From assembly GCF_004134905.2 (NCBI RefSeq), contig NZ_SDPQ02000001.1, positions 1 to 64,000 of the forward strand: a stretch of DNA of 64,000 nucleotides, read 5' to 3'. Source of the stretch: Aeromicrobium ginsengisoli. GTDB taxonomy: Bacteria > Actinomycetota > Actinomycetes > Propionibacteriales > Nocardioidaceae. This document shows positions 32,027 to 39,120 of this stretch, piece after piece. The translations under genes were made by a program, and so were the position numbers. Under the pieces are notes generated by a model, which worked only from the letters and a program-made list of their open reading frames with translations, was not told the origin of the DNA and made no database searches. Each line of letters opens with the position of its first letter. Positions within the stretch are counted from its first letter, which is position 1.

Positions 32027-32560
32027 ATGAAGAGGTCTACTAAGGGCGCCCTGGCGGCGTCCGCCGCCGGCATTCTGCTGCTTGGCGGAGCCGGTTCGCT
32101 CGCGTTCTGGAACGCCGACGTCAGCGTGCCGGGTGGCGCGATCGCGGCCGGTGAGCTCAAGCTGTCGACGCCGGACTGCGGCGCAGGCTGGCTGCTGGAC
32201 GACGGCGAGTCAGCGCCGAACGATCCGTACGAGCCGGGCGACAAGGTCGTCCCGGGCGATGTCATCACCAAGGTCTGCACGTTCGACATCACGGCGACGG
32301 GTGATCACCTTCGCGCGACGCTCGATGTCACCGGTGGGGGATTCGCCGCCACCAACGCGCTGACGGACGATCTCGACATCGTCGCGACGTACCAGATCGA
32401 TGGCGTCGACATCCCGGCCGAGATCACCGAGGCCAACGGCGGCGACACCGTCACCGCGACGATCGCCGTCACGTTCGACTCGGGCTCGCTCAACGCGACG
32501 CAGACCTTGTCGGCGACGCTCAACGCGGTCACGATCGCGGCGCAGCAGGTCCACAGCTGA
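32027..32560 (+). CDS. exported protein with alternate (SipW-type) signal peptide, module A
   Basis: A 177-residue secreted protein of the alternate signal-mediated exported family known from Rhodococcus (RER_14450 type). The N-terminus KRSTKGALAASAAGILLLGG, then SLAFWNA, is the characteristic signal, with cleavage expected before the FWN region. The mature part is acidic, beta-rich and has two Cys (PDCGAGW, KVCTFDI) likely joined in a disulfide. The ribosome site AGAGGGAG is strong. The next gene is a SipW-like peptidase. Likely role: a structural surface or matrix component, as for TasA/camelysin. Role inferred. Confidence 0.88.
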   Translation: MKRSTKGALAASAAGILLLGGAGSLAFWNADVSVPGGAIAAGELKLSTPDCGAGWLLDDGESAPNDPYEPGDKVVPGDVITKVCTFDITATGDHLRATLDVTGGGFAATNALTDDLDIVATYQIDGVDIPAEITEANGGDTVTATIAVTFDSGSLNATQTLSATLNAVTIAAQQVHS

Positions 32561-32607: not shown

Positions 32608-33168
32608 ATGTCGACACATCGCAACGAACGACCTGTGCGGGGATGGCTGATCCAGGCCATCTCCTGGTTCGTCATGTCCGCATTCCTGCTGGTGCTCGTC
32701 GTCTCGGTGCTGGTGCCGCGGTTGGCGGGCGCCACGCCCTACACGATCCTCACGAGCTCGATGCGGCCCGGCATGCCGCCCGGGACGTTGGTCGTGGTCA
32801 AGCCGGTCGACGCGTCGGACATCGCGATCGGCACCGTCATCACGTACCAGCTGGAGTCCGGCGAGCGGGACGCCGTCACCCACCGCGTCGTCGGCATCGG
32901 CTTCGACGGGCACGGCGAGCGCATCTTCCGCACGCAGGGCGACGCGAACGGCGCGCCCGATCCGGCGCCCGTCAGGCCGGTGCAGGTCAAGGGCGAGCGG
33001 TGGTACGCCATCCCGTACCTCGGCCGCGTGACGAACGTGTTGACGAATGCGCAGCGGCAGACCGCCGTGGTGATCGTCGCCGTCGGTCTGCTCGGCTACG
33101 CCGCCGCGATGTTCACGGCTGCAGCGCGGTCTCGAGGCCGCAAGGAGGGCACGCATGTCCAGTCATAG
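32608..33168 (+). CDS. SipW-like signal peptidase I (S26B, Ser-His-Asp type), module A
   Basis: A 186-residue membrane protease with an N-terminal helix (about 14-37) and a C-terminal helix (about 152-172). The catalytic Ser51 is in TSSMRPGMPPGTLVVV, His92 in AVTHRVVG (His replaces the Lys of ordinary bacterial signal peptidase) and Asp112 in TQGDANGAPDP. This is the archaeal/ER-like class used for alternate signals. Its last 14 bases overlap the next exported-protein gene, so enzyme and substrate are co-translated. Confidence 0.9.
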   Translation: MSTHRNERPVRGWLIQAISWFVMSAFLLVLVVSVLVPRLAGATPYTILTSSMRPGMPPGTLVVVKPVDASDIAIGTVITYQLESGERDAVTHRVVGIGFDGHGERIFRTQGDANGAPDPAPVRPVQVKGERWYAIPYLGRVTNVLTNAQRQTAVVIVAVGLLGYAAAMFTAAARSRGRKEGTHVQS

Positions 33169-33766
33169 GCGCACCACGCGGAGCCGTATGCCGTCGGTGC
33201 GGGTCCGCGCACTGCTGAGCCTGGGTGTCGCTCTGGGCATCGGCTCGGTCGGCACGTTCGCCTCGTGGACCGACGACGTGACGGTCAGCGGCACCACGTT
33301 CACGGCCGGCACGCTCGACCTGCAGGTCAACAACTCCGACTCGTACGCCACCACGACACTGAGCATGAGCGCCATGGTGCCGGGCACGACGTCGGCGGAG
33401 GTGCTGACCGTCAAGAACAACGGGACCGTCCCGTCGAAGTACACCTTGACCGGCGGGCTCACCGGCACCAACGCGGCCGACTACAACGCGGCGGCGGCAA
33501 ACGGGCTGCTGCTGACGGTCCGCCTCGGCGGCGCCAAGTCAGGTGCCACGTGCACGGGTGGCACGGCACTGGTCACGGACCAACCGCTGACCAGCACGAC
33601 GACGACCACGATCCTCGCCAAGCGCCCGAGCACGGCGCTGACCGCTTCTGGCGGCAACGAGGTCCTGTGCTTCCAGGTCAAGCTCTCCGACACCGCCCCC
33701 AGCAGCTTGCAGGGCAAGACGGCGACAGCCACGTTCACCGCAACCGGCACCTCGGACATCTCATGA
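33155..33766 (+). CDS. TasA/camelysin-like SipW-dependent exported protein, module A
   Basis: A 203-residue secreted protein. A basic N-terminus (SHRRTTRSRMPSVRVRALLS) precedes a hydrophobic run and the SipW-type junction GTFASWTDDVTVSGTTFTAG, as in TasA/CalY proteins. The mature part is Thr/Gly-rich and beta-like, with two Cys (ATCTGGT, VLCFQV). It overlaps the peptidase gene upstream by 14 bases and the peptidase fusion downstream by an ATGA. Likely a fibre or surface-layer subunit; the paralogue in module B is at 37514. Confidence 0.87.
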   Translation: MSSHRRTTRSRMPSVRVRALLSLGVALGIGSVGTFASWTDDVTVSGTTFTAGTLDLQVNNSDSYATTTLSMSAMVPGTTSAEVLTVKNNGTVPSKYTLTGGLTGTNAADYNAAAANGLLLTVRLGGAKSGATCTGGTALVTDQPLTSTTTTTILAKRPSTALTASGGNEVLCFQVKLSDTAPSSLQGKTATATFTATGTSDIS

Positions 33767-34710
33767 CCGGGCGCAGGTTGGTCCGCGGCACTCGCGAGGC
33801 CGCCCTGACCGGGGGCGCAATCCTCGGCTGTGTGTGCCTTGCCGCGACCGTGGCGGGGTACGCGTTCGGGATCACGCCGTTGGTGTTCCGCTCCGGGTCG
33901 ATGTCACCCGCGATCCACACGGGCGACCTCGCCGTCGCGCGTACGGTCGACGCCCGGTCGTTGGACGTCGGTGACATCGTCTCGGTGATCAATGCGGACG
34001 GTCATCGGGTGACCCATCGCCTCCGCGACATGTCGGCCGAAGGGGATGCTCGACAGCTGACCCTGCAGGGCGACGCCAACCAGGCTCCGGATGCCGAGGT
34101 CTACACCGTGACCCGCGCCGAACGGGTGCTCTTCGACGTCCCGAAGGCGGGATATGTCGTCAGCGCCGCGTCGGGTCCCGGAGGACTGTTCGTGCTCGGG
34201 GCATACGTGACCGGGATGCTGGTGCTGGCCTTTCGACGGCGACCCCCGGACGATCCGGTCGCACCGACGAAGCGCGGGGGAGCGCGCAAGGCAGGGCGCC
34301 GCACGAGGGTGGCGGCCCGCTCCGCGGTCGTCGCGGTCACCGGTGCCACGCTGGCCGTGGCCGCTCCGGCGTCCGCGGCCTTCTGGACGGATCCGGCACC
34401 CGTCACCGGCACGAGCCTGACGGCGTACACCCTGCCGGCGCCGGCGACGTTCACCTGTGGGGGACTCGGCGTGCTCTCCGTGACGTTCAACTGGGCAGCA
34501 GTCACCGGAGCGACCGACTACACGCTGCACTACGGACCGGGCGGAGCGACGACCAAGACCGTGACGGGCACCTCGACCAGCATCACGTCGGCGATCAGCG
34601 GCGGTACGGCCTGGATCGTGGCGAATCGCGGCTTCACCTCGACGACGTGGAGCTCGGTCGCCTCCACCACCCGGAGCTACACCGTTGCCGTCGTCAGCCT
34701 CTGCAGCTGA
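33763..34710 (+). CDS. SipW-like signal peptidase fused to a second SipW-type signal and beta domain, module A
   Basis: A 315-residue fusion. Residues 1-160 are a complete S26B peptidase: helix 12-36, Ser46 (RSGSMSP), His85 (RVTHRLR), Asp104 (QGDANQAP), helix about 138-157. After a basic linker (161-185), a second hydrophobic stretch ends in APASAAFWTDPAP (about 186-212), the same junction type as in the exported substrates. It leads to a fibronectin-like domain (222-315) with a Cys near each end. The chain seems to carry its own substrate. ATGA overlap with the upstream gene. Confidence 0.85.
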   Translation: MTGRRLVRGTREAALTGGAILGCVCLAATVAGYAFGITPLVFRSGSMSPAIHTGDLAVARTVDARSLDVGDIVSVINADGHRVTHRLRDMSAEGDARQLTLQGDANQAPDAEVYTVTRAERVLFDVPKAGYVVSAASGPGGLFVLGAYVTGMLVLAFRRRPPDDPVAPTKRGGARKAGRRTRVAARSAVVAVTGATLAVAAPASAAFWTDPAPVTGTSLTAYTLPAPATFTCGGLGVLSVTFNWAAVTGATDYTLHYGPGGATTKTVTGTSTSITSAISGGTAWIVANRGFTSTTWSSVASTTRSYTVAVVSLCS

Positions 34711-34777
34711 CGGGGCCGACGCGTCAGGGCGGGCCGCCGATAGAGTCTTCGCCGGGTGGGAGACCCGAAGGGACGCG

Positions 34778-35320
34778 ATGCCTCACGTGGGACGACGCAG
34801 GGCCAGATCAGGCCCGCGGACCGGTGGCTTCTGGCGCACGACCCTTCTCAACGTGGGGGCGGCGCTGGGTGTCGTGTGCCTGCTCGCGGCCGGGCTCGGA
34901 GCGGCACTCGGCGTGACCCCCATCGCCTTCCGCTCCGACTCGATGGCACCGGCCATCTCCTCGGGCGACCTGGCCCTGGCGAGGAGCGTCTCGGCCGGCG
35001 ACATCGGCAACGGCGACATCGTGAGCGTGTCCGACCGCCAGGGCTCCCGGGTGACCCATCGCGTGGTCCAGGTCGAGCCGTACGGCAGCAGCATCCGGCT
35101 GACGCTCCAGGCCGACGACAGCGCGGCGCCCGACGCCGAGACGTACGACGTGACGTCGGTCGAGCGGGTCTTCGTCTCGGTCCCGCTCCTCGGGTACGTC
35201 TTCGGTGCGGCCGGCGGCCTGGTGGTGATCGGCATCGGTGGGGTCTTCGTGGCCTGCCTCGCCATCGTGGTCTTCGTCCCGCGGCGGAAGATCGCCGGCA
35301 CGCGACGCGCCGTCGACTGA
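34778..35320 (+). CDS. stand-alone SipW-like signal peptidase with altered active-site loop
   Basis: A 180-residue S26B peptidase homologue. N-terminal helix about 23-46, Ser55 in RSDSMAPAI, His94 in RVTHRVV, Asp113 in QADDSAAPD, C-terminal helix about 146-170. The usual GDxN loop reads ADxS and the GSM becomes DSM, so activity may be shifted or lost. It is closest in sequence to the peptidase part of the preceding fusion, as if copied from it without the substrate domain. ATG 34778 has GAAGGGA upstream; a TAGAGT element may give it its own promoter. Confidence 0.82.
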   Translation: MPHVGRRRARSGPRTGGFWRTTLLNVGAALGVVCLLAAGLGAALGVTPIAFRSDSMAPAISSGDLALARSVSAGDIGNGDIVSVSDRQGSRVTHRVVQVEPYGSSIRLTLQADDSAAPDAETYDVTSVERVFVSVPLLGYVFGAAGGLVVIGIGGVFVACLAIVVFVPRRKIAGTRRAVD

Positions 35321-35726
35321 GGTTGTGGCGAAGTCGCGATTCCGCACTGATACCGCGTATGATTCGTGGTGATCGCCGCGCTGAAGTATGGGAGTGCTTC
35401 GCAAGGTGCGGTGATGGAACAGAGGGAGCACGACCCCTGCACGGACGCTCTGCGTCCCAGGCGTGCTTGCCTCCGTCGAACCCGATCGGGAGGGATATCC
35501 GAGAGGGAGCGGCGGCGGTGGCGTATCCCCTGGAGATTCGTCTCTCACGCCGCCGCCGTCGCCTGACGGACTGCGCATGGCTCCTCTGACCCATTCGGAC
35601 AAGCCGTCTAGTCCCTTTGAGTCATCTTCTCCCCATTGCAGTGTCCTTGTGGTCCACGTCTCGTTTGTCGAGTGAAAGCAACGCGTGACCTGCCCGGGTC
35701 GCGCCGAACTCGGATGGGACTCCCAC
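35321..35726. other. 406-base intergenic region between modules A and B
   Basis: No gene is supported. An open frame here (35366-35566) is Arg-rich and has no ribosome site. The stretch holds a TATGAT element (35358-35363), a GC-rich inverted repeat (CGGCGGCGG at 35510-35518 and CCGCCGCCG at 35550-35558), and the second 31-nt shared block (35609-35639). Confidence 0.6.
35609..35639 (+). promoter_or_regulatory. shared 31-nt block, copy B, upstream of module B
   Basis: TAGTC-N5-GAGTCATCTT-N-TCCC-N-ATTGC, the same as upstream of module A at 26 of 31 positions and with identical spacing. It lies 88 bases before the module B exported gene (92 in module A). Confidence 0.65.
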
Positions 35727-36248
35727 ATGAAGAAATCCACCAAGGGCGCACTCGCTGCCGCCGCCGCAGGCACGCTGCTTCTCGGCGGCGCCGGATCGCT
35801 GGCCTTCTGGAACGCGACCGCGACGATCGACTCGTCGAGCGTCAACGCCGGCTCGCTGACCTTGACCGACGACGACTGCTCGGACTGGATCCTGGACAAC
35901 GGCGAGGACGTCGGCGGAGTTGCCCTCGTCGACTCGATCGTCCCGGGCGACCAGCTCACCAAGACCTGCACGTACAAGATCACCGCGACCGGTGATCACC
36001 TCCGCGCCACGCTCGGTGCCAGCGGCGGAACCCCGTCCGGTGACCTGGCCGGCGTCGTCACCGTCACCCCCTCGTTCGACGTGGACGGCAACACCGTCAC
36101 CGAGATCACCGAGGACAACGACGGCGACACGCTGACGGCCAAGATCGTTCTCGACTTCCCGTACGGCACGGGCGTCGACAACGACACACAGCTCGATCAG
36201 CTGAACCTCAGCGACTACGTGGTCACGGCCACGCAGGTTCACAACTGA
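35727..36248 (+). CDS. exported protein with alternate (SipW-type) signal peptide, module B
   Basis: A 173-residue paralogue of the module A protein at 32027. The signal KKSTKGALAAAAAGTLLLGG, then SLAFWNAT, is nearly identical. The mature part keeps the two-Cys pattern (DDDCSDW, KTCTYKI), the ITATGDHLRATL stretch and the C-terminal VTATQVHN, but differs elsewhere. Start ATG 35727 follows GGGAC. A long hairpin follows the gene, then the module B peptidase. Likely a second structural subunit type. Confidence 0.88.
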   Translation: MKKSTKGALAAAAAGTLLLGGAGSLAFWNATATIDSSSVNAGSLTLTDDDCSDWILDNGEDVGGVALVDSIVPGDQLTKTCTYKITATGDHLRATLGASGGTPSGDLAGVVTVTPSFDVDGNTVTEITEDNDGDTLTAKIVLDFPYGTGVDNDTQLDQLNLSDYVVTATQVHN

Positions 36249-36268
36249 TCGATCAGTAGGTATCCCTC

Positions 36269-36310
36269 CCTGGCAGGGGTGCCGGCGCACGCCGGCACCC
36301 CAACGCCAGG
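36269..36310 (+). other. strong intercistronic hairpin after first exported gene of module B
   Basis: An inner 11-bp stem GGGGTGCCGGC / GCCGGCACCCC with a GCAC loop is extended by outer CCTGGC / GCCAGG arms. No T tract. It is at the same place as the hairpin in module A. Confidence 0.65.
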
Positions 36311-36340
36311 GACACCTGACATGACACGAAACGGGGACGC

Positions 36341-36895
36341 ATGAAGAGCACCGCTGGATGGATCGGCCAGGTCGTCTCCTGGTTCGTCATCTTCGCGATG
36401 CTCGCTGTCCTCGCGGTCTGTGTCCTGATCCCCAGGCTCGGCGGCGGCACGCCGTACACGATCCTGACGGGCTCCATGAAGTCGTCCTTGCCGCCCGGAA
36501 CCCTCATCGTCGTCAGGCCCACGCCGGCGAACGAGATCAACATCGGAGACGTCATCACCTTCCAGATCGAGACCGGCAAGCCGGCTGTCGCGTCGCACCG
36601 GGTCATCGGCAAGACCGTTGCCGACGACGGCACCCCGCGTCTCATCACCAAGGGCGACGACAACGCGGCCGCGGATCCCGATCTCGTACAGCCGGCGCAG
36701 ATTCGCGGCAAGCTCTGGTACTCCGTCCCCGTCCTGGGTCGGGCCAACACCCTTCTCGACAGGTCCCAGCACCAGACGCTGGTGATCTCGGCCGGTGGCG
36801 CGCTGCTCGTCTATGCCGCGTTCATGCTCGTGTCGGCCGCCACCGACTCCCGCGCGCCGCGCGCCGCGCGCCGCAAGACGGAGGTCGTCGCATGA
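36341..36895 (+). CDS. SipW-like signal peptidase I (S26B), module B
   Basis: A 184-residue membrane peptidase, paralogue of the one at 32608. N-terminal helix about 8-31, Ser45 in LTGSMKSSLPPGTLIVV, His86 in VASHRVIG, Asp106 in TKGDDNAAADP, C-terminal helix about 144-164, basic tail. All three catalytic positions are kept. It overlaps the LPDTG-protein gene by an ATGA. Confidence 0.9.
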   Translation: MKSTAGWIGQVVSWFVIFAMLAVLAVCVLIPRLGGGTPYTILTGSMKSSLPPGTLIVVRPTPANEINIGDVITFQIETGKPAVASHRVIGKTVADDGTPRLITKGDDNAAADPDLVQPAQIRGKLWYSVPVLGRANTLLDRSQHQTLVISAGGALLVYAAFMLVSAATDSRAPRAARRKTEVVA

Positions 36896-37521
36896 AGCGC
36901 CTCCTGACCCTCGTGCTGGCGATCGGCCTCGTGCTCATCGGCGGCCCGGCTTCCGCGGCCGACGAGATCGGCCTCAGCCGCGACGGCGTGACGTTCACGT
37001 CCTCGCTCAGCGGCTCCCTGTTCGACTCGGCGTTCATCTGGGTGCCAGGAGACGTCGAATCGGAGACGTTCTACGTACGCAATCAAGGTGGCGACACGGC
37101 TCGGCTGACGGTCGACATCATCGGCGAGCAGATCAGCGACCTGATCGAGTCGGGCGACCTGCACGTCACGGCGACCAGTGGCAGCCACAGCACGACCGTC
37201 TCGGCTCCCGGCGACCACCGGCTCCTGAGCATCCCCGGCGTCAAGGCCGACCAGATCGTGCCGGTGACCGTCACGGTCGCCTTCGACGAGGCATCGACCA
37301 ACGAGACGCAGCTGCTCTCGAGCGACCTCACCTTCCGCATCAACCTCAAGCAGACCTCGGCCGTCCTGGGCGAGGACGACGAAGACGACGACGGCCTGCT
37401 GCCCGACACCGGGGCCCTGACCCCGCTGTGGCTCGCGGGCCTGGCCGCCATCTGCATCGGCAGCGGTGCCGCACTCATCTCACGACGACGCACTCACACA
37501 GAGGGAGCCTCCCATGGCTAA
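36892..37521 (+). CDS. secreted LPXTG (LPDTG) wall-anchored protein
   Basis: A 209-residue protein. An ordinary Sec signal ends GGPASAADE (about residue 23). The middle part is beta-rich (about 30-155) and reminiscent of WxL/DUF-type immunoglobulin folds, with no Cys. An acidic spacer (GEDDEDDDGL) precedes the sortase motif LPDTG (170-174), a hydrophobic helix and the RRR tail. This is a textbook sortase substrate, and the only sortase in the window is the class F enzyme 10 kb upstream. Coupled to the peptidase by ATGA overlap and to the next TasA-like gene by an 8-base overlap. It may tether the SipW-processed fibre to the wall. Confidence 0.9.
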   Translation: MKRLLTLVLAIGLVLIGGPASAADEIGLSRDGVTFTSSLSGSLFDSAFIWVPGDVESETFYVRNQGGDTARLTVDIIGEQISDLIESGDLHVTATSGSHSTTVSAPGDHRLLSIPGVKADQIVPVTVTVAFDEASTNETQLLSSDLTFRINLKQTSAVLGEDDEDDDGLLPDTGALTPLWLAGLAAICIGSGAALISRRRTHTEGASHG

Positions 37522-38107
37522 GCACTCCACGTCCCGACTCCGCCGCGCTGCGAGGGGCCTGCGATCGACGCCGGTCCGTGCCGTGCTCAGCCTTGGCGTC
37601 GTGTTCGGCCTGGGTGCCGTGGGCACGCTGGCCTACTGGACGGACACCGCGGCCCTGGCCGGCGGCACGTTCACGGCCGGCACCCTCGACATCAAGCTGT
37701 CAGGGGTCGACAACAACCCCGCCGCGTTCACGACGAGCTTCGCGATGACCAACATGCAGCCCGGTGACAGCAAGGCGGCGAGCGTCTCGGTCCAGAACGC
37801 CGGCAGCCTCGACTTCACCTACACCGCGACGGGCACGGCACCCGGCGCGCTGAACTCGACCTTGGTGTTCCGGGTCGTCCCGGGCGGCACGGTCTCCGGC
37901 GGCACCTGCACCGGTGGGACCCAGACGTACAACGCGAGCCTGACGGCCGGCAACACCGGCGTCATCACGACGAACCGCCCGCTGGCTGCCGGTGCGAACG
38001 AGTCGTTCTGCGTCAGCGCCTCGATCCCGTCCGGCGCCACCACCGGTCAGGGCCTGTCGACCACGGCCTCGTTCACCTTCAACGCGAAGCAGGTCGGAGC
38101 CCCGTAA
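37514..38107 (+). CDS. TasA/camelysin-like SipW-dependent exported protein, module B
   Basis: A 197-residue paralogue of the protein at 33155. The basic N-terminus (KHSTSRLRRAARGLRSTPVR) and hydrophobic run end in VGTLAYWTDTAALAGGTFTAG, the SipW-type junction. The mature chain is Thr/Gly/Ala-rich and beta-like, with Cys in GGTCTGGTQ and ESFCVS. It overlaps the LPDTG gene by 8 bases and the peptidase fusion by one base. Likely a fibre subunit. Confidence 0.87.
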   Translation: MAKHSTSRLRRAARGLRSTPVRAVLSLGVVFGLGAVGTLAYWTDTAALAGGTFTAGTLDIKLSGVDNNPAAFTTSFAMTNMQPGDSKAASVSVQNAGSLDFTYTATGTAPGALNSTLVFRVVPGGTVSGGTCTGGTQTYNASLTAGNTGVITTNRPLAAGANESFCVSASIPSGATTGQGLSTTASFTFNAKQVGAP

Positions 38108-39120
38108 TGAAAGAGCCCAACATGCGGCTCGTCTACGTGCAGAATTCGGAGACCCGAGCCGAGCGGCGCAAGCGTCGCCGTCGTGCCCTGTTCTCCCTGC
38201 GCGCCGTGCGCGAGGTCGTGCTGACCGTTGGTGCGATCCTCGGGGTGCTCTGCCTCGTGAGCGGTGTCGCGGCGATCGCGTTCGACATCAAGCCGATCGT
38301 GTTCCAGTCCGGCTCGATGGCGCCTGCCGTCGACACCGGCGCACTGGGCATCTCCCGCACGGTGCCGGCCAGCGACCTCAAGGTCGGCGATGTCGTCACG
38401 GTGCGTACGGGCACTGGCGTACGCGTGACCCACCGCATCAAGGACATCAGCCATTCCGGCGACAAGGCGACGTTGGTGCTCAAGGGTGACGCCAACAAGG
38501 TCCCCGACGACAAGGTGTACGTCGTGAAGTCCGCACCGCGCCTGCTGTTCGACGTGCCCAAGGCGGGATATGTCGTGTCGTTCATCTCGGGGCCGATCGG
38601 CATCTTCGCCGGCGGGCTCATGGTGGGCGTCGTCCTGCTGACGGTCTTCCGACCCGGCAACCCACGCTCCAAGAGCAAGGGCGGCGGCTCCCGCAAGGCG
38701 TTCTCCGCGGCTGCTGTGATGATCATCGGCACGAGCGTCACCGGGGTCTTCAGCGGCGCGCAGACGCAGGCCTACTACACCGACAGCGCGACGGCGACGT
38801 CCGGGACGTTCAGCGGCGCAGCTGCCGTGGTGATCACGAACTGCACCACGAGCGGCAACAGTCTCACGATCACCTGGACGGCTCCGGTCAGCCCGACGAC
38901 GTGGGAGTTCCGCTACGCCTACACGACGCCCGCAGGCGGCACCGAGGTCGACTCGTTCGCCGGCTCGCTGCGGACGAGGACGTCGTCGACGAACCTCAAC
39001 AACAAGGCCGGCACCGTGACGCTGGTCGGGATCTTCCCGTCGCCGACGGGTGAGAAGACGTCGTTCACGTACGCGTTCTCCGGCAATGGTGCCAACCGCT
39101 CCTGCACCCTGGTCCCGTAG
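38107..39120 (+). CDS. SipW-like signal peptidase fused to a second SipW-type signal and beta domain, module B
   Basis: A 337-residue fusion with the same plan as the protein at 33763. The basic cytoplasmic N-terminus is longer. Peptidase part: helix about 35-60, Ser70 (QSGSMAP), His109 (RVTHRIK), Asp128 (KGDANKVP), helix about 161-181. A Lys/Gly/Ser linker leads to a second hydrophobic segment (198-219) ending GAQTQAYYTDSATA, the SipW junction type. The C-terminal beta domain (about 235-337) has Cys at both ends (ITNCTTSG, RSCTLVP). Independent conservation of the fusion in both modules shows that it is not an accident of annotation. Confidence 0.86.
   Translation: MKEPNMRLVYVQNSETRAERRKRRRRALFSLRAVREVVLTVGAILGVLCLVSGVAAIAFDIKPIVFQSGSMAPAVDTGALGISRTVPASDLKVGDVVTVRTGTGVRVTHRIKDISHSGDKATLVLKGDANKVPDDKVYVVKSAPRLLFDVPKAGYVVSFISGPIGIFAGGLMVGVVLLTVFRPGNPRSKSKGGGSRKAFSAAAVMIIGTSVTGVFSGAQTQAYYTDSATATSGTFSGAAAVVITNCTTSGNSLTITWTAPVSPTTWEFRYAYTTPAGGTEVDSFAGSLRTRTSSTNLNNKAGTVTLVGIFPSPTGEKTSFTYAFSGNGANRSCTLVP

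Follow-up and report, generated by a model that had tools for sequence, protein, structure and literature searches.

In Bacillus subtilis the genes tapA-sipW-tasA encode an ER-type signal peptidase, SipW, together with substrates of the TasA/camelysin type. According to the available part of PMC10151520, the SipW substrate TapA has a mature start (AFHDI) resembling that of TasA (AFNDI) and an Ig sandwich closed by the disulfide Cys92-Cys188, its gene overlaps sipW, and the protein acts as starter. In Bacillus cereus CapP (BC1280) is processed by SipW, shares its locus with the subunits of the CapP/SipW/TasA/CalY system and starts filament assembly (available part of PMC13082335). The starters of TasA-type donor-strand fibres differ by species, as TapA and CapP illustrate.

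Here we describe a locus in a window of 64,000 nucleotides from Aeromicrobium ginsengisoli, in which two proteins, P0001 and P0002, each combine, in one chain, a peptidase with a third hydrophobic segment that leads into a SipW-type junction and a beta sandwich. We regard this fused architecture as a variant of the SipW-TasA system. The reading we favour, and to which we give close to an even chance, is a two-in-one product: an S26B peptidase plus a cargo that would be exported by its own internal SipW-type signal, cut there and used as a fibre starter. A search of titles and abstract openings of freely accessible papers found no published description of the fusion.

The locus shares with the B. 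subtilis system the ER-type peptidase and the TasA/camelysin-type substrates, but here the accessory domain and the peptidase form one chain, the fold match is FnIII and each cassette holds two peptidase types. Strip, sandwich and gene order would fit a TapA/CapP-like anatomy, in likeness and not in homology; the signal is recognised by our own profile alone and the disulfide is predicted from Cys positions. CapP is moreover a separate gene in another organisation. The junction is of the type found in the neighbouring substrates of families TIGR04088 and TIGR04089, but in P0001 and P0002 the signal lies within the chain, behind the two helices of the peptidase, and neither tail is scored by TIGR04088. 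In a structure search the nearest solved structures of the enzyme part were SEC11A and SEC11C of the eukaryotic signal peptidase complex, which are not known to carry a cargo domain or an internal signal. Self-cleavage also occurs in LepB and other type I signal peptidases, but there a part of the enzyme is removed, whereas here an exported cargo domain would be released.

Results and Discussion

The genes discussed here all lie on the forward (+) strand and, but for one gene between them, form two cassettes. Cassette A begins with a separate SipW-type exported protein (32027..32560; TIGR04089 136.6 bits, TIGR04088 23 bits; junction LA^FWNAD), followed by a type-1 S26B peptidase without tail (32608..33168; TIGR02228 95.2 bits) and a camelysin-family substrate (33155..33766; PF12389 30.1 bits, gathering threshold 22.5; TIGR04088 32.3 bits; junction FA^SWTD), the stop of which is overlapped by the start of P0001 (33763..34710, 315 aa), the fused type-2 S26B peptidase with internal signal and FnIII cargo. 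Downstream lies a third type-2 S26B peptidase, without tail (34685..35320 as a mechanical ORF, the true start being probably near 34775), which scores 46.9 bits with TIGR02228, below the cut-off, and groups in the Aeromicrobium clade of the tree. Cassette B contains a separate TIGR04089 exported protein (35727..36248; 134.3 bits; junction LA^FWNAT), a type-1 S26B peptidase without tail (36341..36895; TIGR02228 83 bits), a surface protein with an LPDTG-type C-terminus seen in its sequence (36892..37521; NCBIfam anchor models scored below cut-off only), a camelysin-family substrate (37466..38107, true start probably near 37514; PF12389 35.3 bits, TIGR04088 29.8 bits; junction LA^YWTD) and P0002 (38107..39120, 337 aa), built like P0001 according to profiles, alignment and model. 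The coordinates and frames first given for P0001 and P0002 proved correct, and the reading frames have no internal stop.

Both proteins score above the curated cut-off of the S26B family (TIGR02228, 51.85 bits) with 59.8 bits for P0001 and 73.3 bits for P0002, while with the Bacillus SipW equivalog NF046067 they reach 61.8 and 61.7 bits, below the 190 required. The predicted catalytic Ser46 (codon 33898..33900) and His85 (34015-34017) of P0001 are invariant in a 40-row alignment, their role being assigned by family, and Ser70 (38314..38316) and His109 (38431-38433) of P0002 are invariant in a 34-row alignment and aligned with SEC11A, where they match SGSM..P and HR. Two Asp are also conserved in both alignments, which places the enzymes in the Ser-His type with Asp and not in the Ser-Lys type, and AlphaFold2 models of the two proteins (mean pLDDT 78) show a peptidase domain with two helices. 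The originally proposed S26B peptidase with Ser, His, Asp and two helices is thereby borne out, and from its active-site residues the enzyme is predicted to be active.

Beyond the peptidase the original prediction had placed a further hydrophobic segment that ends in a SipW-type junction, and this is recovered as a third helix in the AlphaFold2 models (P0001 residues 181-199, 34303..34359; P0002 residues 198-213, 38698..38745), which for P0001 agrees with the signal homology of such tails. The predicted junctions are Ala206^Phe207 of P0001 (A206^FWTD, 34378..34383; from motif, alignment and profile, A206 kept in at least 90%), where an alternative site ASA^A one residue earlier is also conceivable, and Ala222^Tyr223 of P0002 (A222^YYTD, 38770..38775; from the profile and an Ala invariant in 34/34 rows). 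Both sit in a low-confidence, disordered strip (pLDDT <50; residues 200-219 and 210-238, respectively), so the models show an exposed junction and not a plain third membrane helix, and from sequence and models the topology is basic loop, helix, exposed junction and sandwich. Among the homologues listed (the best 120 of 447 and the best 120 of 333) the third segment is present in 223/226, counted as the most hydrophobic stretch anywhere and in some rows located inside the domain, and the loop carries a net charge of +3 or more in 199/226 by automatic picks. The 34-row alignment shows P4' Asp, Trp257 and Cys333 with a conservation of at least 90%, and no column of the loop or of helix 3 is among the conserved ones.

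Could the junction be a chance motif in a plain three-helix peptidase with an unrelated ectodomain? TIGR04088 (cut-off 19 bits) matches neither P0001 nor P0002, whole or cut, and only 4/34 relatives at E<=1; a motif scan, which finds the junction in 216/226 tailed homologues (5/231 homologues have no tail), is loose, since the same cut-off fires elsewhere in 49/216 of the same proteins. The scan alone is thus insufficient. However, a profile that we built from 156 separate substrates detects, at E<=1e-3, the two tails of the window, with E 4.4e-4 and 5.7e-6, as well as 19/69 fused tails, missing 50/69 (best 80 of 109 loci), and its controls were silent: 0/69 S26 parts, 0/82 type-1 peptidases and 0/69 shuffled tails (0/220 in all). 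Together with the invariant P1 Ala, the conserved P4' Asp, Trp257 and Cys333 and the homology to N-terminal signal regions, this puts the junction beyond chance, and we reject the chance motif as very improbable. An internal translation restart yielding a separate cargo was also rejected, as no internal start upstream of helix 3 is conserved: before helix 3 an in-frame ATG occurs in 17/68 fused genes, any start codon in 47/68 and an RBS-like stretch with a start in 7/68, and of the two window genes one has a single GTG without RBS and the other none.

As to the enzyme that would use the junction, LepB copes poorly with an aromatic P2', whereas SipW accepts TasA (available part of PMC10269814); both window tails have the aromatic P2'. 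It is absent in 17/69 fused tails, all from Rhodococcus or Rhodococcoides (best 80 of 109 loci).

The residues that follow the junction, P1'-P13', form a donor-strand-like strip, FWTDPAPVTGTSL in P0001 (34381..34419) and YYTDSATATSGTF in P0002 (38773..38811), identified by comparing tails with substrates and with the TasA donor strand. In TasA the donor strand comprises residues 28-38, with contacts F29, I32 and F39 (available part of PMC9674648); in our alignment F29 corresponds to P2' and F39 approximately to P13', and I32 is without clear counterpart. PF12389 scores the neighbouring substrates and lists neither P0001, P0002 nor their tails. Over P1'-P16' the tails are closer to their cognate substrate than to others (BLOSUM 37.0 vs 26.0, 0/5000 permutations), also with 48 non-redundant cassettes (36.0 vs 24.9, 0/5000 permutations) and in 5/5 two-cassette genomes. 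A partial Mantel test given peptidase distance did not reach significance (r 0.118; 126/2000 permutations as high), and the case for co-evolution of strip and substrate is weak. The likeness extends to about P15', beyond which the substrates continue with G-T-L-D-L (Gly16' in 62/68) and the tails are Pro-rich. A strip that resembles the donor-strand end of fibre subunits, a feature absent from the original prediction, suggests a starter like TapA or CapP.

A Cys-flanked beta domain after the junction was likewise expected and is seen in both models as a sandwich matching FnIII domains by Foldseek and, for P0002, VIA-align. It covers about residues 231-314 of P0001 (model 231-308; 34453..34704) and residues 242-336 of P0002 (38830..39114), and it is bracketed by C232/C314 and C246/C333, which are invariant or kept in at least 90% in the alignments and, by their positions, probably form a disulfide. 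TapA is absent from the structure matches listed (Foldseek for both proteins, VIA-align for P0002). The domain could also be cut off as a secreted or tip adhesin with no donor-strand role, the fusion setting stoichiometry and export order. Many surface proteins contain FnIII domains, and tail bodies range from 151 to 510 aa behind a constant junction, both of which would fit an adhesin; however, the likeness to the substrates runs across just the donor-strand part of TasA and then stops, and we consider this alternative quite unlikely. The Rhodococcus tails (334-510 aa) far exceed one FnIII domain in length, which counts against the favoured reading.

The layout recurs in relatives from Nocardioidaceae, Nocardiaceae, Micrococcaceae and Cryobacterium. 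Among 79 fetched actinobacterial loci and the window (the best 80 of 109; one, L049, yielded no S26B row) a fused tail is present in 69/94 type-2 S26B genes, a share that is not a prevalence, because homologues and loci were drawn with fused queries. All but one of these genes (68/69) follow a fibre-type substrate gene, and in 68/68 an in-frame start codon lies within 15 nt of the substrate stop; the remaining locus, L057, gave no substrate match and was omitted from the strip, partial Mantel and gene-start analyses. Searches with P0002, which count the peptidase and not the tail, found it in 30/41 genomes of the genus at E<=1e-10 (22/41 at 1e-28 or better) and in 7/57 genomes of the order at E<=1e-20. 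Type-1 genes have at least 60 residues beyond the domain match in 7/82 cases and more than 100 in 4/82; the stretches inspected resemble cytoplasmic tails. The Cryobacterium ruanii assembly (L084) has no S26B above cut-off besides the fused enzyme, the other match being a Ser-Lys LepB, and two substrates adjoin the fused gene; a second Cryobacterium genome has five S26B above cut-off, so that the lone fused enzyme is found in 1/2 genomes. A mobile origin was rejected, as four plasmid records match and none covers 80% of the query.

Loss of the segment in homologues, which had been set down as evidence against the original prediction, does occur, in that 25/94 type-2 genes are without tail, but in 15/25 the tail is a separate adjoining gene (best 80 of 109 loci). 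In these split loci an ORF of >300 aa can begin right at the peptidase stop or no more than about 20 nt away from it, and the same segment serves as signal at the N-terminus of its product, which identifies the segment as a signal sequence and the tail as exported cargo. In BLASTP each of the 15 split tails finds fused tails, the best match reaching 44% over 379 columns, and 0/15 match 138 ordinary substrates; a split-tail profile matches 41/69 fused tails and 4/138 substrates at E<1e-3. In the tree the split rows lie nested within the fused rows. The aromatic P2' is retained in 52/69 fused vs 3/15 separate tails (with L057, a fused row, assigned by hand). The number of independent comparisons, however, is just 2 if well supported branches are counted and 4 at most, which gives no support for dependence on the peptidase, and we rejected that interpretation.

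The split loci also bear on the possibility that helix 3 is a signal anchor that is never cleaved, so that FnIII domain and strip stay tied to the peptidase and hold substrates or the first subunit. In favour of such an anchor are the fused state in 69 of the 94 type-2 genes and a nominal Pro at P1' in 47/216 homologues among those listed (8/69 fused loci), as compared to 0/143 separate substrates, which like the 156 of the profile were picked with a motif score that favours aromatics at P2' and Asp at P4' and gives no credit for P1'. An A-x-A-like site, perhaps serving LepB, lies one residue earlier in 46/47 of the Pro homologues. An anchor, however, needs neither the Ala/Gly/Ser at P1 (206/216) nor the small P3 (192/216) found among the homologues listed, 15 loci encode this domain as a protein of its own that begins with the signal, and a fixed tie would leave the N-terminus of the strip unfreed; we find an uncleaved anchor rather unlikely. 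The earlier idea that the domain serves as a dock for fibre subunits is weakened too, because in the split loci it exists as a separate protein.

Conclusions

Taken together, we favour release of the tail as a fibre starter. An S26B active site, whether in the protein itself, in a second copy of it or in the type-1 partner, would cut after the conserved Ala, and the freed domain would present a fibre-subunit-like N-terminal strip on a sandwich with paired-looking Cys; since this body is already complete it could donate a strand but not accept one. The domain may then have the role that TapA plays in B. subtilis and CapP in B. cereus: present in few copies, it would start or cap the camelysin-type fibre encoded by the adjacent substrate genes, and it would arrive in a 1:1 ratio to the peptidase at the site where the subunits are trimmed. 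Against this reading stand the lack of a TIGR04088 match, the fused tails missed by the substrate profile, Pro at P1' in a part of the homologues, the absent aromatic P2' in Rhodococcus and Rhodococcoides, the partial Mantel result, the second Cryobacterium genome and the long Rhodococcus tails. More doubtful is the further proposal of a self-sufficient machine in which release in cis and donation of the first strand, to a subunit that the same enzyme has trimmed, couple processing to nucleation in space and number, and in which the one-chain form is the older and was broken into two adjacent genes more than once.

The architecture would be unusual for a bacterial signal peptidase, since the enzyme's own polypeptide would include an exported cargo together with a site of the substrate type, and trimming of the subunits and initiation of the fibre may lie with one protein. 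A starter-like domain tied to its peptidase in several actinobacterial families, and encoded elsewhere by an adjoining gene, would link signal-peptide removal to fibre nucleation, a link that can be tested.

Organization of the island

The region from 32.0 to 39.1 kb of the window is an island of two cassettes, A and B. Cassette A holds a TIGR04089 exported protein (start 32027), a type-1 S26B peptidase of the kind without a tail (start 32608), a camelysin-family substrate (start 33155), the fused peptidase P0001 (start 33763) and a tail-less third peptidase (34685-35320, mechanical start). Cassette B holds a TIGR04089 protein (start 35727), a type-1 peptidase (start 36341), a surface protein with an LPDTG ending (36892-37521), a camelysin-family substrate (start 37466) and the fused peptidase P0002 (start 38107). 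A whole-genome search placed all four S26B peptidases above the curated TIGR02228 cut-off in the island, together with a fifth just under it; the sixth match lies on contig 3 and belongs to a Ser-Lys LepB. All four TIGR04088 matches of the genome also fall within the island.

The surface protein sits between the type-1 peptidase and the substrate, and its LPxTG-like ending hints at sortase anchoring; by pattern search 20 of 59 cassettes have such a C-terminus, L042 at least being doubtful by eye. The third peptidase has SDSM, not SGSM, as active-site motif. Three other Aeromicrobium loci (L012, 4649-5188; L015, 4210-5106; L041, 8998-9540) likewise have a tail-less type-2 peptidase after the fused gene of cassette A, and in the peptidase tree the four sequences group together as a single, well supported clade.

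Conservation of the junction

The original prediction of two S26B peptidases with an in-chain SipW-type junction and a tail is confirmed. The two real tests of the junction are an alignment with P1 Ala in 34/34 rows and a profile from separate substrates only, run with three controls. Among 231 proteins (the best listed homologues of both searches, the two queries included) a tail was found in 226, of which 216 had a scored junction, with Cys close to both ends in 202 of these 216 tails. P1 was Ala in 206, P2' Trp, Phe or Tyr in 214 and P4' Asp or Asn in 214 of the 216, counts that are description and not test because the motif scan rewards those same letters. The P2' aromatic (Trp208 in P0001, Tyr224 in P0002) is kept in 52 of 69 fused tails. 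Fused junctions that have lost it (AGxD, PLTD) occur in a Rhodococcus/Rhodococcoides group (L020, L028-L032, L034, L037, L040, L063, L072), where P1 Ala and the later SG are kept; perhaps another peptidase took over there. Many Rhodococcus cassettes (L018, L025, L031 and others) begin with two upstream substrates with unlike junctions: A^LWxD preceded by LGS[FY], and A^LWRD preceded by Q[TS]TG.

Fused and split relatives

The relatives, the best 80 of 109 loci from one scan, are mostly Rhodococcus, Aeromicrobium, Nocardioides, Prescottella, Gordonia and Dietzia, with Psychromicrobium, Arthrobacter, Renibacterium, Tomitella, Speluncibacter and Cryobacterium also present. In 79 of these loci and the window we counted 94 type-2 and 82 type-1 S26B genes, and 64 of the 80 sources have a fused type-2 gene. 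Sixty-nine type-2 genes are fused and 25 lack the tail; 15 of the latter are immediately followed by a separate tail gene, whose product has an N-terminal signal region of its own. The remaining ten are the Aeromicrobium third peptidase (four, window counted), first copies in L025, L026, L035 and L055, where the second type-2 copy is fused, an extra copy of L022, and L078. By BLASTP all 15 separate tails matched fused tails and none matched the 138 ordinary substrates. A peptidase tree with six type-1 rows as root has basal fused rows and nested split rows. In its best version the fused label changes five times, and at least two of these changes fall on branches with good support, in a tree where 41 of 97 inner branches are weak. 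The fusion is likely older and splitting later.

Proposed processing and a possible starter role

Since the segment is a signal peptide where the genes are apart, the simplest reading is that it is a signal sequence in the fused chain as well, and the topology agrees, with the positive loop inside and the tail outside. The proposal that each enzyme carries its own substrate is partly supported. P1' is Pro in 47/216 homologues vs 0/143 separate substrates, the clearest result against cutting at the nominal bond. An A-x-A-like site lies one residue earlier in 46 of these 47. Passages of PMC10269814 describe LepB as coping poorly with an aromatic P2', whereas SipW processes TasA. In a Cryobacterium ruanii draft assembly (L084, L092) the fused peptidase is the sole S26B above the cut-off, the type-1 enzyme is absent, and two separate substrates adjoin, one recognised by TIGR04088; there the fused enzyme alone is probably enough for SipW-type processing. 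The other Cryobacterium tested (L083) has five S26B above the cut-off.

The strip after the junction resembles neighbouring substrates up to about P15'. Beyond this, substrates continue into their body with Gly (62/68), Thr/Ser, Leu/Ile, Asp (51/68) and Leu/Ile, and fused tails become Pro-rich. In L047 (7471-9095) the usual SGTF pattern is missing from both the strip (fused TASASAGF) and the cognate substrate (STATASFS). In TasA the strip becomes the donor strand, residues 28-38, which makes contacts through F29, I32 and F39 (PMC9674648). TapA, a filament starter, carries a strip of this kind on an Ig domain that is closed and disulfide-bonded (PMC10151520), and CapP of B. cereus is processed by SipW and proposed as an assembly starter (PMC13082335). 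The fused tail appears to have the same three parts as TapA, a likeness in anatomy and not homology. Taken together, the fused proteins are best read as a SipW-type peptidase joined to a putative TapA/CapP-like starter, with cleavage and the starting role predicted and action in cis a possibility.
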